Position numbers and translations under genes: made by a program | Shown: positions 52,614 to 59,326 of the stretch, piece after piece | How positions within the stretch are numbered: the first letter of the stretch is position 1 | How the letters are laid out: each line of letters starts with the position of its first letter | From: Ectothiorhodospiraceae bacterium BW-2 | GTDB taxonomy: Bacteria; Pseudomonadota; Gammaproteobacteria; Thiohalomonadales; Thiohalomonadaceae | Assembly (NCBI GenBank): GCA_008375315.1 | Contig: CP032507.1 | Span: 3,000,071-3,064,070 of the forward strand | Direction: 5' to 3' | Length of the DNA stretch: 64,000 nucleotides | Notes under the pieces: generated by a model | Databases searched by the model: none | Told to the model about the DNA's origin: nothing | The model's input: only the letters and a program-made list of their open reading frames with translations

Positions 52614-52799
52614 TTAACCGTCGCTCTCCTCTCCGCGCTCTTTTTGGATTCGCTCGTAGATCTCCTCCCGATGTACCGATACCTCCTTGGGGGCGTTAAC
52701 ACCGATTCTGACCTGATTTCCCTTGATCCCCAGTACCGTGACGGTGACATCGTCACCAATCACCAAGGTTTCACCAACGCGACGGGTCAATATTAACAT
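52614..52799 (-). CDS. csrA: Carbon storage regulator CsrA
   Basis: RNA-binding dimer that represses or stabilises mRNAs at GGA-loop sites. [20 protein letters not shown] followed by [20 protein letters not shown] and [11 protein letters not shown] is the full family pattern, with Arg44-like VHREE intact. 61 aa, like E. coli. AGAGGACTATAGG precedes the ATG. It controls carbon storage, motility and biofilm in relatives, and so belongs functionally with the c-di-GMP genes in this window, though not linked to them. Confidence 0.97.
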
Positions 52800-52908
52800 C
52801 CTATAGTCCTCTTTCGATTATTGTCATCCTAATATAGCGGCCGGTTTGAGCAGCAAGCTGGTTGTTGCAGCCGTTATAGAGCCATTATTTGGCAAAGCGG
52901 TCGATAAA

Positions 52909-54756
52909 TCAACCAACGCGCGAGACATCACGCACAGCACCGCGAGAGGCTGAAGTCGTGAGCGCGGCGTACGCCTTTAGTGCTGAGGAGATCTGACGGC
53001 GACGAGCTGAAGCTGGCTGCCAAGGGGTAGCTCGCGCGCTCATCGTCTGATGGCGCTGCGCAAGCACACTCTCATCAAGGCGTACATTAATAGTGCGGTT
53101 AGGGATATCGATATCGATACTATCGCCCTCTTCAATGAGAGCAATCGCCCCCCCTTCGGCGGCCTCAGGGGAGACATGGCCGATAGAGAGGCCGGAGGTG
53201 CCGCCGGAGAAGCGGCCATCGGTCAAGAGGGCACACGCCTTGCCGAGCCCTTTCGACTTTAGATAGGAGGTCGGGTAGAGCATCTCCTGCATCCCCGGGC
53301 CACCGCGCGGCCCCTCGTAGCGAATAACCACCACATCGCCGGCGACGATTTGATCGCCTAAAATCGCCTCTACCGCACTATCCTGACTCTCAAAAATGCG
53401 TGCTCGGCCACTAAATTTAAGATTCGACTCATCGACACCGGCTGTTTTTACCACACACCCCTCAAGGGCGATATTGCCGTAGAGTACCGCTAAGCCGCCA
53501 TCTTGGCTGTAGGCGTGCTCTTTGGCACGAATACACCCCCGTTCACGATCGCTATCGAGGCTAGGGTAGCGGTTGGATTGACTAAAGGGCTCGGTGGTCA
53601 GGACGCCTCCGGGGGCGGCGCGGTAGAAGTCGAGCCGCTTGTTATCAGCGGTTAACCGAATATCCCACAGCGCTAGCGCCTCTTCGAGGCTCTGGGCATG
53701 GACGGTATGGACATCCCTATGGAGCAAGCCGGCGCGATCGAGTTCGCCTAGAATGGCCATCACCCCGCCGGCGCGATGGACATCTTCCATGTGGTACTGC
53801 TGGGTGCTCGGGGCGACTTTGCATAGATGGGGAACTTGGCGCGAGAGGCGGTCGATATCGGCCATGGTAAAGTCAACCCCCCCCTCCTGCGCGGCGGCTA
53901 AGAGGTGCAGGATGGTATTGGTCGAGCCCCCCATGGCGATATCGAGCGACATCGCATTCTCAAACGCCTTAAAGTTAGCGATGGAGCGAGGGAGTACCGA
54001 CTCATCCCCCCTCTCATAGTAGCGTTTGGCCAGTGCAACCACAATGTGCCCCGCCTCCAGAAAGAGCCGCTTGCGGTCGCTATGGGTCGCAACGATGGAG
54101 CCGTTACCGGGAAGTGACAGCCCTAGCGCTTCGGTCAGACAGTTCATCGAGTTAGCAGTAAACATTCCCGAGCAGGAGCCGCAGGTGGGGCAGGCGGAGC
54201 GTTCGAGGGTTGCCACGGTCTCATCACTCTGTTCAGGGTTGGCCGCTGAGACCATCGCATCGACTAAATCGAGCGCGACCTCTTGGCCGTTAATAACCGC
54301 TCTACCCGCCTCCATCGGCCCACCGGAGACAAAGATGGCCGGAATATTGAGTCGCATGGCGGCATTGAGCATGCCGGGGGTGATTTTGTCGCAATTGGAG
54401 ATGCAGACTAACGCATCGGCGCAGTGGGCGTTGACCATATACTCCACTGCATCGGCGATAATCTCCCGTGAGGGGAGGGAGTAGAGCATACCATCATGCC
54501 CCATAGCGATGCCGTCATCGACGGCGATAGTATTAAACTCTTTGGCGACCCCGCCCGCTTTCTCTATCTCTCGACAGACCAGTTGCCCTAAATCTTTTAG
54601 GTGAACATGGCCGGGAACGAACTGGGTAAAGGAGTTAGCGACGGCGATAATCGGTTTATTGAAATCATCATCACTCATACCGGTCGCACGCCAGAGTGAG
54701 CGAGCGCCGGCCATATTACGACCTTGGGTAGAGGTATGGGAACGGTAGGTAGGCAT
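52909..54756 (-). CDS. ilvD: Dihydroxy-acid dehydratase
   Basis: Iron-sulfur dehydratase in valine, leucine and isoleucine synthesis, also supplying ketoisovalerate for PanB. 615 aa against 616 in E. coli. Motifs: [34 protein letters not shown] (cluster cysteines), [12 protein letters not shown] and [20 protein letters not shown]. The end KGAVRD-like sequence [11 protein letters not shown] is conserved. AAGGAGCAACCGACT precedes the ATG. Confidence 0.97.
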
Positions 54757-54852
54757 AGTCGGTTGCTCCTTGCTTTAACAGATTGGTAACTTAAGTGGGG
54801 GTTGGGCTAGGATTTTGGCACGCTCTGGCTGTGGTGACAAAGTTTTTAGCGC

Positions 54853-56430
54853 TTAGTCAGGATCGGGGTAGCGCTCCCGTACCGCGATAAACAGGGCTAG
54901 ATTCTCTTTCAGTAGCTGAACTAGTTTCGGATCGAAGTGCTCTCCCGCCTCACGGGTAATTAACTCCATGGTTTTATCGATACTCCACGGCTCTTTATAG
55001 CAGCGCTTGCTCTGTAGGGCGTCAAACACATCAGCTAGAGCGGTAATGCGGGCGGTAAGCTCGATCTCTTCGCTCTTTAGTCCGAGCGGGTAGCCCTTAC
55101 CATTCCACTTTTCGTGGTGTTGGCGGGCGATAGTGGCGGCAAGACGAATAGCATCTCGTTTGGAGCGGCCGAGCAGTTCGCCACCGATTTCGGCGTGTCG
55201 CTGCATAATAGTCCACTCCTCACTGTCGAGCTTACCGGGTTTATGCAAAATAGCGTCAGGGATACCGATTTTGCCAAAGTCGTGTAGTGGCGCGGCGATG
55301 AGTACCCGCCGACATAACTGCTCATCGAGCCCGACTAGACGCGCGAGTAGTTCGCTGTAAGCGGCGACACGATAGACATGGTTACCGGTCTCTTTGGAGC
55401 GGCGCTCAATCGCCTCCCCTAACATATAGACAATTTCGCTTTGAGTCTGCTCTACCTCTTCACGCAGCACGATATTTTGGTAGGCGATGCTAGCGTTGTG
55501 GCAAAAGAGCTTTACTAGCTCATAGTCGATATTGCTTAAACGGTGCGGGGTAGTGAGGTAGAGGACTCCCTCTCGTCCATTAGCGGGACTGAAGTAGGCG
55601 GTGTAGTGGTGTTCTGTCAGTATGTCGTGTTTATGCTGCAAACAGGCATCGATAGCGTTAATAATGTCGTCATCAAAGACATCGTGTGGATCGCGGTTCA
55701 TATAGGCCTCATAGTCACCTGTGGCGGCCGTAATGCGATTCTGTTCATCGTCACACTCCATAGCAAAGCAGCCGGTGTGAACAAAGAGGCTGTTTTTATC
55801 GAGGTAGAGTACCGCAACTAGCTGTTGTAGCACCCCCTGAATAAACTCCGGCAGATGCTGCGGTCGGAACAGCTCTCTGGAGGCGTTAATGACGCGGTGC
55901 AGCCCCTGCCGGTTCGCCTCTAGCGCCATAATATCCTGATAGGAGCGCAGCCCAGCCATAACGGTGGTATAGAGCTTTTGTGATGAGAGCTCGGTCTTCT
56001 CTTTATAGTCGTTAATATCGTAGTCACGAATAATAGAGCGCTCCGGGGCCTGTCCCGGCTGGCCGGTACGCAGCACTAGCCGAGTGGTGCGGTTTTGTAG
56101 ATCGTGACGAATGTGACGCACTAAATCGAGTCCGGCATGATCGGTCTCCATCACCACATCGATAAGTGCCAGCGCGATATCCTGCTCCTGCTGTAGCAGC
56201 GTTAGCGCTTCAGCGGCGGAGTAGGCGTGCAGAAAGTGGAGTGGCCGGCCATTAAACTCAAAGTTTTTCAGCGCTAAAGTGGTGACATCGTGCACACTGC
56301 TGTCATCATCGACCAGTAGCAGCTTCCAGCCGGGCACGACAGAGCGGCTCGGTGAAGGGGGGCGGGTGGCCGCCTCCTCTTCGTTATCGTTAGAAAACAT
56401 TATCTCATCCTCCTCCGGATTCATACTCAT
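54853..56430 (-). CDS. Response regulator: REC-DUF3369-HD-GYP phosphodiesterase
   Basis: A 525-aa output protein. REC domain (about 35-160) with phospho-acceptor Asp91 in ALIDVVM and the acidic triad DDD at 41-43. Next is a DUF3369 sensory-like domain (about 180-340). The HD-GYP domain starts about 350; HD is HDFGKIG (383-389) with the second metal ligands in QHHEKWNGKGYPLG, where GYP is at 446-448. It should degrade c-di-GMP when phosphorylated. The start overlaps the histidine kinase stop by four bases, so they form one system. Confidence 0.93.
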   Translation of the reverse strand: MSMNPEEDEIMFSNDNEEEAATRPPSPSRSVVPGWKLLLVDDDSSVHDVTTLALKNFEFNGRPLHFLHAYSAAEALTLLQQEQDIALALIDVVMETDHAGLDLVRHIRHDLQNRTTRLVLRTGQPGQAPERSIIRDYDINDYKEKTELSSQKLYTTVMAGLRSYQDIMALEANRQGLHRVINASRELFRPQHLPEFIQGVLQQLVAVLYLDKNSLFVHTGCFAMECDDEQNRITAATGDYEAYMNRDPHDVFDDDIINAIDACLQHKHDILTEHHYTAYFSPANGREGVLYLTTPHRLSNIDYELVKLFCHNASIAYQNIVLREEVEQTQSEIVYMLGEAIERRSKETGNHVYRVAAYSELLARLVGLDEQLCRRVLIAAPLHDFGKIGIPDAILHKPGKLDSEEWTIMQRHAEIGGELLGRSKRDAIRLAATIARQHHEKWNGKGYPLGLKSEEIELTARITALADVFDALQSKRCYKEPWSIDKTMELITREAGEHFDPKLVQLLKENLALFIAVRERYPDPD

Positions 56431-57986
56431 TCTCTCTTTTCGGGTAGTTGTATTTGGAATCGGCTATAACTGCCGACTTGACTGCTCACAGTGATAGAAC
56501 CTTGTAGCGTACTAGTAACTAGATTATAGACGATATGTAGCCCTAATCCGCTACCCCCGCTGTGGCGACGGGTGGTAAAAAAGGGGTCAAACAGGTGCTG
56601 CTGCACGGTTTCATCCATACCGTGGCCATTATCGAGATACTCAATCGTGAGATGAGCGTCGCTGCGGTAGGCGTCTATTGTAATAGTGCCCGTCTCATCT
56701 TCGTTAAAGGCGTGGATGAGTGAATTTAGTATCAGGTTGCTAATCATTTGGTAGATGGCCCCAGGATGGGTATAGAGGCTGAGATCAGCGGCAATCTGGT
56801 TTTCAACCGTTATCAGACGCCGTTTTAGTTTGGGGCGCAGGCTGAGGGTGATCTCATCAATATAGTGTCGTAGTCCGAGTTGACGCCACTGATCGCTGCC
56901 TTGATCCACAGCGACCTGTTTAAAGCTACGAATCAGCTCGGCAGCGCGTTGCAGGTTGCTCTGTAAAATATGGCACGCCTGCTCAGCATGGCTAATAAAT
57001 TGGCTGAAGTCGCCCTTTTTGAGGCTGTTGTGATCAAATTGGTGGCGAATTTGAGCGACCTCTTCGTTTAGGCTCGTGGTGGCGGTTAGGCCGACCCCGA
57101 TAGGGGTATTGATTTCGTGGGCGATGCCAGCAACTAGATTGCCAAGAGAGGCCATCTTCTCCGACTGCACTAGCTGCTGCTGCGCAGTCTGGAGGTGGTT
57201 AATAGTCTGCTGTAGATCTGCATTGCTCTGTTGCAACTCAAAAGTGCGTTTGGTCACTAATCGCTCCAGATCGGCGGTAAGCTCCTCTAGCTCCTCTTTT
57301 GCCACCATGGTTTCGTGCTGTTCCGCTAGGAGCTGTTGTTGGGTTTTAGCTGTTTGCAGGAGAATGGAGATCGCCAATAGCAGTGTCACAGGAAAGAGGC
57401 CGAACGCGACTAGCAGCGTGATATAGATACTGTTACGGTTACTCTCGGTCAGTCGCTGCTGGGTCGTATTGATGTGGTGTCGGGTGGTCTCAAACAGATT
57501 GTTAAAGGCTTGTGTCAGGCGGTATTGATCCCGAATCACATCATAAACCCCGGTTCTTAACGCCTCAGGAGTCGCCTCCTCCTCTAATAGCCGCACTACC
57601 CGATCCTGATTGAAAGAGGCGCGGCGCACGGTCGAGAGGAGTTGGTTAAAGGCGTGCTGTTGCGACTCGACGAGAGTGAGCGCTTCAAACTGCTCCCTTA
57701 GCTGAATAAAGTTGGAGGCGAGATAGCGATAGCGAGTGAGATACTCCTCCCGCACAAAGGGATCGTTATTCGTGGTGATAAACATCATGATAAAGACTCG
57801 CTCTAGGCCGATATCACGCATCTGCAAAATAGTCTGGCTAACATGATCTTGGTGAACAAAGAGCTGTTCGAGCTGACGATTACTGCGTTCGAGGTGGAAA
57901 ATACCGTAGCCGGTAACCACAATCGCACTAGTAAAGAGGATTGAAAAGAGCAGTGCTGCCGGTAGGGTGGGGCGAGATAGTCTCAT
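56427..57986 (-). CDS. Membrane sensor histidine kinase
   Basis: A 519-aa kinase. Membrane helices at about 9-28 and 187-210 flank a 155-residue helical periplasmic region that resembles four-helix chemoreceptor sensors. A coiled coil (about 215-275) leads to the HisKA region with the phospho-accepting His290 in GIAHEINTPIG. The ATPase part has NLILNSLIHAF (N box), DNGHGMDE (G1), DPFFTTR (F box) and GGSGLGLHI (G2). It should phosphorylate the HD-GYP regulator encoded next. Overlaps the ferredoxin gene by four bases upstream. Confidence 0.93.
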   Translation of the reverse strand: MRLSRPTLPAALLFSILFTSAIVVTGYGIFHLERSNRQLEQLFVHQDHVSQTILQMRDIGLERVFIMMFITTNNDPFVREEYLTRYRYLASNFIQLREQFEALTLVESQQHAFNQLLSTVRRASFNQDRVVRLLEEEATPEALRTGVYDVIRDQYRLTQAFNNLFETTRHHINTTQQRLTESNRNSIYITLLVAFGLFPVTLLLAISILLQTAKTQQQLLAEQHETMVAKEELEELTADLERLVTKRTFELQQSNADLQQTINHLQTAQQQLVQSEKMASLGNLVAGIAHEINTPIGVGLTATTSLNEEVAQIRHQFDHNSLKKGDFSQFISHAEQACHILQSNLQRAAELIRSFKQVAVDQGSDQWRQLGLRHYIDEITLSLRPKLKRRLITVENQIAADLSLYTHPGAIYQMISNLILNSLIHAFNEDETGTITIDAYRSDAHLTIEYLDNGHGMDETVQQHLFDPFFTTRRHSGGSGLGLHIVYNLVTSTLQGSITVSSQVGSYSRFQIQLPEKRE

Positions 57987-58258
57987 GGCTGTTGTTGTAG
58001 CCAGTGGGCCATTAGTTCGAGTAGGCGGGGGAGTTCGGTCTCGGTGATATGGTGCAGTAGCGGTCCATTGGGCACCAGACGCAGATTGGGGCCGTGCTGG
58101 CAGTGGCCGAGGCAGGCGATCCGCTCCATTGTAACCTGGGGGTAGTGGTGCTGTAGTAACGGCTCTAGTTGTGTCGCGACAACCTCTGCACCGCGAGCGT
58201 GGCAGGAGGGGGAGTGGCGACGCCGTTTGGTACAGATAAGCAGTGTAGGCTGGCTCAT
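57983..58258 (-). CDS. Thioredoxin-like [2Fe-2S] ferredoxin
   Basis: A 91-aa protein with cysteines at 9, 19, 49 and 53: CTKRRRHSPSC and CLGHCQHGPN. This C-x9-C and C-x3-C spacing is that of thioredoxin-like [2Fe-2S] ferredoxins, also found in NuoE-like and hydrogenase subunits. I start it at ATG 58258, which has AGAGG eight bases upstream; an upstream ATG at 58300 has no ribosome site. The stop overlaps the kinase start (ATGA). Joining a ferredoxin to a kinase and HD-GYP regulator in one overlapped set suggests redox input to the signalling pair, an inference. Confidence 0.8.
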   Translation of the reverse strand: MSQPTLLICTKRRRHSPSCHARGAEVVATQLEPLLQHHYPQVTMERIACLGHCQHGPNLRLVPNGPLLHHITETELPRLLELMAHWLQQQP

Positions 58259-58393
58259 TTTAGGGGCCTCTATTCTCCGCATCGTGGGGTTTATTGTCAT
58301 GGTAAGGCTTTTTTTGTGCCCTTTAATCTGCCACTATAAGCGCAATTTTGCAAACAGTTGGTCTATTAATCGAACGGAGTAAAGGGTAACACC

Positions 58394-59326
58394 ATGAAAT
58401 TGGCAATGATTGGACTGGGTCGAATGGGTGGCAACATGGCGCTGCGCTTAGCTCGCGCAGGGCATGAGGTGCTCGCTTATGCGCGTAGCCGTGAGACCGC
58501 CGAAGCGCTAGCGGCTGAGGAGGCTAATATCAGCATCTGCGATAACTTTCAGCAGTTGGTGAACGATTTTCCCTCACCACGAGTCGTCTGGTTAATGATT
58601 CCCTACGAGGCGGTCGATGAGACGATAGAGCAGCTCATTGATGCCGGACTGGATCGCGGTGATGTGATTATTGATGGGGGCAACTCTAACTATAAAGCGT
58701 CGCAGCGACGCGCTGAGAGGTTGCAACGACTTGATATCCATTTTATTGATGCCGGAACCTCAGGGGGGGTCTGGGGGTTGGAGAACGGTTACTCAATGAT
58801 GTGTGGCGGCACGAAAGAGGCGTTCGCCCTGATTGAGCCGGTGGTGAAATCGCTCGCTCCGGCAGAGGATAAGGGGTGGGGGCATGTCGGCCCGGCCGGT
58901 GCCGGCCACTATACCAAGATGATCCACAATGGCATTGAGTACGGCATGATGCAGGCGCTGGCGGAGGGGCTGGAGCTGTTGGATGCGAAACAGGAGTTTG
59001 AGCTCGACCTATTGCAGATAGCTAAGCTGTGGCAGCACGGCAGTGTGGTGCGCTCTTGGCTGCTCGACCTAACTGCCGATGCGTTGCAACGCGATCCCCA
59101 CTTAGAGCAGATTAGTGACTGGGTGGCCGACTCTGGTGAGGGGCGTTGGACTGTGCAGGAGTCGATTGATGCCGCCGTACCGGCACCGGTCTTATCGCTG
59201 GCGCTAATGATGCGGTTTCGCTCCCGTCAGGAGAGCTCGCTGGCAGGGCGGGCACTGGCGGCGATGCGAGCGGGGTTTGGGGGACACGCGACTAAACCGG
59301 CAGAGCCTGAGAGTCACAGGAGTTAA
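58394..59326 (+). CDS. gnd: 6-phosphogluconate dehydrogenase, short (NAD-type) form
   Basis: Oxidatively decarboxylates 6-phosphogluconate to ribulose 5-phosphate. The N-terminal Rossmann fold is MKLAMIGLGRMGGNMALRLA; active-site blocks are IIDGGNSNYKASQRRAERLQ, DAGTSGGVWGLENGYSMMCG and GHYTKMIHNGIEYGMMQALA. 310 aa is the length of the short YqeC/GndA type, usually NAD-preferring, not the 468-aa E. coli Gnd. Cofactor use is inferred. CGGAGTAAAGGG precedes the ATG. First gene of a gnd-zwf-pgl operon, two bases before zwf. Confidence 0.93.
   Translation: MKLAMIGLGRMGGNMALRLARAGHEVLAYARSRETAEALAAEEANISICDNFQQLVNDFPSPRVVWLMIPYEAVDETIEQLIDAGLDRGDVIIDGGNSNYKASQRRAERLQRLDIHFIDAGTSGGVWGLENGYSMMCGGTKEAFALIEPVVKSLAPAEDKGWGHVGPAGAGHYTKMIHNGIEYGMMQALAEGLELLDAKQEFELDLLQIAKLWQHGSVVRSWLLDLTADALQRDPHLEQISDWVADSGEGRWTVQESIDAAVPAPVLSLALMMRFRSRQESSLAGRALAAMRAGFGGHATKPAEPESHRS

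Follow-up and report, generated by a model that had tools for sequence, protein, structure and literature searches.

A short thioredoxin-like ferredoxin gene overlapping a histidine kinase and HD-GYP regulator pair in Ectothiorhodospiraceae bacterium BW-2

In Ectothiorhodospiraceae bacterium BW-2 a gene for a short, predicted [2Fe-2S] ferredoxin overlaps the gene for a sensor histidine kinase, which in turn overlaps the gene for a REC-DUF3369-HD-GYP response regulator. The components are of known kinds; the three-gene arrangement is new and was seen once. We tentatively propose that the operon is specific to this lineage and that its ferredoxin adds redox or Fe-S status to c-di-GMP output, perhaps by keeping the HD-GYP iron reduced, a reading that we consider possible and somewhat short of probable.

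Gene layout and predicted products

All three genes lie on the reverse strand of the window, as we call the whole 64-kb stretch of DNA that was analyzed. The ferredoxin gene (57983..58258, -; assigned by ORF, Pfam, profile and fold match) would encode 91 amino acids with cysteines at positions 9, 19, 49 and 53 and nowhere else, the kinase gene (56427..57986, -; ORF and Pfam) 519 amino acids, and the regulator gene (54853..56430, -; ORF, Pfam and ligand alignment) 525. One ATGA holds the ferredoxin stop and the kinase start (57983..57986, -), and another the kinase stop and the regulator start (56427..56430, -). These coordinates and junctions bear out a sequence-only reading of the same DNA, which had described a ferredoxin with these four cysteines, a kinase and a regulator joined by four-base overlaps. 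By eye, the Shine-Dalgarno-like sequence GAGG stands 8 bases 5' of the ferredoxin ATG (58267..58270, -), GAGAGA immediately precedes the regulator ATG, and no Shine-Dalgarno-like run occurs in the 20 bases 5' of the kinase ATG. Such a kinase start fits reinitiation after the ferredoxin, or translational coupling, and together with the overlaps it fits a putative co-translation of ferredoxin, kinase and regulator. The pentose-phosphate genes gnd, zwf and pgl are divergent from the ferredoxin (gnd starts at 58394) and no co-directional gene lies directly 5', which makes the ferredoxin gene the first in its run. By a rough gene call, 5 of the 39 co-directional pairs in the window have a gap of -4, two of the five being these junctions; four-base overlaps are therefore not rare here, and they speak for an operon and say little about a partnership. 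Pattern scans of 54600-58600 gave 4 promoter-like matches against 3.2 in shuffles and 9 terminator-like matches against 3.4, with 8 of the 9 on the opposite strand and the sole same-strand match within the kinase gene, and were not used. Past the regulator, ilvD begins after about 100 bases on the same strand, followed by csrA (94.5 bits) (window 52614-54756, -).

The small protein matches PF01257 with 21.4 bits, under the curated cut-off of 24.8, over profile positions 74-142 of 145, and the FeSI equivalog NF041613 with 26.5 bits, far under its cut-off of 195. A profile built from 15 short homologs matches FeSI (Shethna protein I of Azotobacter, 5abr; E 8.4e-11) and the Aquifex ferredoxin (1f37; E 2.3e-10). 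The four cysteines align with those of FeSI in the pattern C-x9-C...C-x3-C, the FeSI ligands being reported as Cys11/24/56/60 (PMC8561814). Among the 15 aligned short homologs C19, C49 and C53 occur in every one and C9 in 14, the lone exception being truncated by a contig end. An AlphaFold2 model made from 5 sequences (mean pLDDT 84.5) has 5abr as its best PDB match, with a TM score of 0.73 by query length and E 1.3e-5. Taken together, these matches back membership of the PF01257 superfamily for a predicted [2Fe-2S] ferredoxin with a thioredoxin-like fold. By sequence its subfamily is a short one, distinct from the nif-type FeSI, which differs from the protein described here in having 104 resolved residues against 91 amino acids, the two being 24% identical. 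Pfam gave no Response_reg match for the small protein, and its modeled fold is thioredoxin-like, unlike a FixT-type single receiver with a four-cysteine motif. The plasmid collection held no match to the ferredoxin at E 1e-6. In a gene tree of 45 sequences (42 short ferredoxins and 3 outgroup rows) the window ferredoxin sits on a long branch and its placement lacks support, so that neither transfer nor inheritance within the order can be claimed. The same genome also carries a longer FeSI-like paralog near two nitrogenase component 1-type genes (L041:6473-11183; nifE/nifN by eye).

The product of 56427-57986 is a predicted sensor histidine kinase by its HATPase_c domain (residues 409-517; 82.2 bits, far over the cut-off) and its H-box AHEINTP, which starts at residue 289 with His 290; the HisKA model scores 17.4 bits, under its cut-off of 26.9. 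The N-terminal region has a hydrophobic segment by eye and is weakly 4HB_MCP-like (4HB_MCP_1, 22.1 bits, under the cut-off of 27). The single cysteine of the kinase is residue 338, and none lies in the sensor half. Among 369 class genomes the best match by E-value to this sensor half (residues 1-210) is 26% identical, and matches in 20 genomes of the order are 18-33% identical, the 33% spanning 113 residues only; with relatives this distant a phylogenetic profile of the pair is not possible. The regulator has DUF3369 (150.2 bits) and HD_5 (113.5 bits) matches far over their cut-offs and a Response_reg match of 22.9 bits, under the cut-off of 30.2, with Asp 91 at a phospho-acceptor-like place by eye. 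It keeps all eight metal ligands of PmGH (E347, H351, H383, D384, H412, H438, H439 and D467), as matched by hand from an alignment to the PmGH chain (numbering offset by 6) and the published ligand list, and it contains the GYP motif HHEKWNGKGYP. We thus predict a REC-DUF3369-HD-GYP c-di-GMP phosphodiesterase with intact catalytic residues. PmGH is reported to hold three irons (PMC4159591), and HD-GYP enzymes to use Fe or Mn (PMC8177086).

Distribution of the pair and of the short ferredoxin

The kinase and REC-DUF3369-HD-GYP regulator form a common module without a ferredoxin. Three further kinase and regulator pairs of this kind occur in the same genome, one of them similar only in the receiver part of the regulator and with no DUF3369 match, and no short ferredoxin was found in the stretches surrounding them. 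In the class sample there were 29 DUF3369 matches in 17 of 339 genomes, 3 of the 29 belonging to the BW-2 genome. We took 26 stretches round the 28 DUF3369 genes other than that of the window, four of them shorter than 6 kb owing to contig ends, and a kinase like that of the window was present in 16 of the 26. The short-ferredoxin profile, which as a control recovers the window gene and other short-ferredoxin loci, found no short ferredoxin in these stretches beside any of the 28 genes. The arrangement is in this respect as unusual as the sequence-only reading had supposed.

A short ferredoxin was found in 6 of 20 genomes of the order at E 1e-6 or better, BW-2 included, and those of the five other members are 33-39% identical to it over the matched part. 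None of the five has the ferredoxin-kinase-HD-GYP order, and in all five the immediate neighbors are other genes: RdgC and OmpA in one (G006), a RelA/SpoT-type gene in another (G012; the family comes from the Pfam tally and the gene was picked by eye), in a third (G001) a divergent gene weakly matching HTH and then a Fer2-domain gene, and MsrB, HbpS-like and HNH genes in G011, with G002 alike by sequence. In the last two, which belong to one genus, MsrB, HbpS-like, short ferredoxin and HNH endonuclease genes stand together (L034:4002-5533 and L037:1-1473; Pfam was run on L034 only). Both genomes also have a GGDEF-EAL gene 1.0 kb and an HD-GYP gene 3.5-4.3 kb upstream of the ferredoxin on the same strand; G011 has 47 GGDEF matches over 2.5 Mb, a density at which such distances are not rare. 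A genome scan added three Rhodospirillales records with ferredoxins 38-42% identical and other immediate neighbors; at these loci a protein judged receiver-like by eye is encoded some 0.8 kb upstream, where the domain query gave no match.

More widely, a clearly short-type member occurs in 8 of the 369 genomes of the class sample (E 2.9e-19 or better, BW-2 included), with a gap separating the eight from the next group. Two of the eight are fusions behind an epimerase-type domain, the short ferredoxin domain being C-terminal (L108:3228-4403, by Pfam; L109:4262-5482, by sequence). The phylum sample has a short ferredoxin in 42 of 398 genomes at E 1e-16 or better, BW-2 again included, and the class of genome G461, which we take to be possibly Magnetococcia, has one in 34 of 48. 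The three-gene order, which the sequence-only reading had proposed to look for in relatives, was not found beside the other DUF3369 genes, in the order-mates, or at any of 56 short-ferredoxin loci; the genomes searched included no second member of the BW-2 genus. That reading had also named unrelated neighbors in relatives as telling against it; this is what the order-mates have, and it bears on conservation, not on function in the BW-2 lineage.

Signaling genes near short ferredoxins

The 56 loci comprise 5 from the order, 3 from Rhodospirillales, 5 from the class sample and 43 from the phylum sample; that of the window is excluded, and a sixth locus of the class sample (G251, L111) was dropped from the neighbor count because the gene is truncated by a contig end. 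Genes of relatives come from simple ORF calling, by which some neighbors will be wrong, and the Pfam tallies cover the 25 most frequent families. Among 79 non-redundant adjacent proteins Pfam gave MCPsignal in 3 (one added by hand, below its cut-off), GGDEF in 2, HD_5 in 1 and HATPase_c in 1, the last being a hybrid kinase that G446 encodes on the opposite strand at a distance of 83 bases, with a like context at 155 bases in G420. The control, 140 proteins drawn at random out of 278 lying at least three genes from the ferredoxin, gave Response_reg 5, HATPase_c 4 and MCPsignal 2 among its 25 most frequent families. We found no general enrichment of signaling genes, kinases included, beside short ferredoxins at the 56 loci relative to this control. 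Of the earlier claim that the three genes form one signaling set, the single overlapped run and its unusual arrangement are supported; a conserved system is not supported.

Genes of c-di-GMP turnover, located with nine single query sequences that may miss domains, lie within 800 bases of the ferredoxin at 6 of the 56 loci. At five of them (G389, G395, G442, G454 and G509) the GGDEF gene precedes the ferredoxin on its strand, with another on the far side of the ferredoxin in G454; scores are good for the GGDEF genes of G454 and G509 and below the GGDEF cut-off for those of G389 and G395. In G442 (L225:5199-6600, contig C51) a protoglobin-GGDEF gene is directly 5' of the short ferredoxin on the same strand, with 22 bases between them. 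At the sixth locus, in G461 (L193:5813-11810, contig C333), the ferredoxin is about 50 bases 5' of a GAF-HD-GYP gene, which is followed by a PAS/GAF hybrid kinase with receiver and Hpt domains, all on one strand.

From measured GGDEF densities (E 1e-5 cut-off), assuming one gene per 1050 bases and taking one locus in each of 51 genomes (without the 3 Rhodospirillales and two second loci), a GGDEF gene within two genes on each side is expected at 2.0 of 51 loci, or in 0.8 of 20 lineages. Observed were 5 loci in 4 lineages (naive Poisson 0.009), two of the genes being weak. As the G389 and G395 genes probably fail E 1e-5, the like-for-like count is 3 loci in 3 of the 20 lineages (0.048). The two-gene distance was chosen post hoc, and all the GGDEF lineages belong to one class and are not independent. 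Within that class the ferredoxins of G389 and G395 (f208) and of G454 (f226) cluster in the tree (support 97/81), and an MCPsignal neighbor is shared, so inherited synteny explains part of the closeness. We regard it as a weak, post-hoc signal, a hint only, confined to the class of G461.

Possible roles of the ferredoxin

On the reading that we propose, a standard c-di-GMP phosphodiesterase pair of membrane kinase and REC-DUF3369-HD-GYP regulator has a stand-alone short ferredoxin as the first gene of its operon, in this lineage only among those tested. The three proteins would be made together, and the ferredoxin would report or supply redox or Fe-S status to the pathway, most likely through electron delivery that holds the HD-GYP iron center in its active ferrous state; c-di-GMP would then be broken down in reduced cells replete with iron-sulfur clusters, a control added to that by kinase phosphorylation. 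Several observations favor such a role: the overlaps and the kinase start lacking a Shine-Dalgarno-like sequence, the ferredoxin fold with its four aligned ligands, an HD-GYP domain with all eight tri-iron ligands, and the GAF-HD-GYP locus of G461, the protoglobin-GGDEF locus of G442 and the post-hoc GGDEF closeness. It is further favored by the use of Fe or Mn in HD-GYP enzymes and by Bhr-HD-GYP, whose ferrous form is reported to hydrolyze c-di-GMP while no activity was detected for the ferric form (PMC9388753). The same account gives Bhr-HD-GYP two di-iron sites, either of which could carry the redox effect, and this counts against the proposal. Against the proposal stand the finding of the order in no other genome, the order-mates that keep their ferredoxin elsewhere, the lack of general signaling enrichment at the 56 loci, and a kinase sensor half with no cysteine and only distant relatives; moreover, the GGDEF lineages all fall in a single class, their synteny is in part inherited, and the genes of G389 and G395 are below the cut-off. 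Redox or iron input to c-di-GMP turnover, as the sequence-only reading had suggested, is plausible in this lineage, kept alive by the GGDEF and HD-GYP genes near the subfamily in another class and by the redox dependence of one HD-GYP enzyme (PMC9388753).

We give the same weight to co-location without partnership, in which a general-purpose, mobile ferredoxin would have landed upstream of the pair and the overlap would have arisen by operon compaction, giving shared expression and not a mechanism. It is as likely because the ferredoxin neighbors of relatives differ and the three-gene order was seen in no second genome. In its favor, four-base overlaps are common in the window, the 28 other DUF3369 genes examined have no short ferredoxin in their stretches, and the contexts of the ferredoxin are varied: besides the RdgC/OmpA, HNH/HbpS-like/MsrB and RelA/SpoT-type neighbors and the epimerase fusion, they include argG-like (by eye), SRAP, chromate transporter, PEPCK and alpha-2-macroglobulin genes, some of these from the Pfam tally only. 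The kinase start argues the other way, since it points to a kinase output dependent on the ferredoxin gene, as do the c-di-GMP genes near the same ferredoxin subfamily in another class. Control in the manner of FixT, with the ferredoxin binding the cytoplasmic part of the kinase and switching it by cluster state, seems to us quite unlikely. There is precedent for a stand-alone Fe-S protein inhibiting a kinase (PMC7078487), and here the ferredoxin gene is directly 5' of the kinase gene; yet FixT is a receiver domain and the short ferredoxin is not, we recognized no docking element in the kinase, and the like kinases of the three other pairs in the genome do without a short ferredoxin in their stretches. 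That the small protein binds another metal, or is a cluster or iron sensor rather than an electron carrier, is very unlikely: a weak DUF1636 match (E 0.064) and the sub-threshold PF01257 score point that way, but the cysteine pattern aligns with FeSI and the fold matches both FeSI and the Aquifex ferredoxin.

A broader form of the proposed redox role, that short thioredoxin-like ferredoxins act in trans as redox partners for c-di-GMP enzymes containing iron or heme, so that c-di-GMP follows the ferredoxin pool, strikes us as unlikely. The HD-GYP domain would be kept reduced and active here, and protoglobin-GGDEF and GAF-HD-GYP enzymes would be served in the class of G461. Known redox or oxygen control of c-di-GMP works through fused heme or hemerythrin domains; the hemerythrin-fused enzymes resemble our proposal in their iron-based redox control and differ in having a fused sensor, not a free ferredoxin. 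A free ferredoxin with input to a c-di-GMP pair would, if true, be another kind of route, one by which the supply of Fe-S and the flow of electrons bear on biofilm and motility decisions. So far the operon is known from one genome, and its value is that of a testable hypothesis, not of a demonstrated mechanism.

The RpfC/RpfG system, whose signal is DSF, has to our knowledge neither DUF3369 nor a ferredoxin. It is alike in pairing a kinase with a REC-HD-GYP regulator, as described in PMC4212101. By its published description the Vibrio cholerae regulator VCA0210 is like ours, with REC, DUF3369 and HD-GYP domains and intact HD-GYP residues, and is an active c-di-GMP phosphodiesterase; that description mentions no ferredoxin (PMC4212101). 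FixT-FixLJ of Caulobacter is likewise a case of a small, separate Fe-S protein acting on a kinase (PMC7078487), and differs in that FixT is described as a receiver domain with a four-cysteine motif, not a thioredoxin fold, and its action has been shown. In open-license literature, searched by titles and the starts of abstracts, no free ferredoxin gene joined to a kinase and HD-GYP pair was found among the matches listed. A report linking iron with c-di-GMP through IsmP/ImcA (PMC10904736) was dropped as a parallel, its sensor being given as a CHASE4 domain.

Some hydrogenase classes are described as kinase-, cyclase- or MCP-linked (PMC5037454), an analogy that we did not use. In the class of G461, a protein of 212-259 amino acids resembling MCP-signal domains is encoded on the opposite strand, at most 3 kb upstream of the ferredoxin, at 11 loci (L199:2221-2862, L200, L209, L210, L216, L221, L222, L224, L225, L226 and L235); the two scanned, those of L199 and L225, also have weak Rossmann-type matches.
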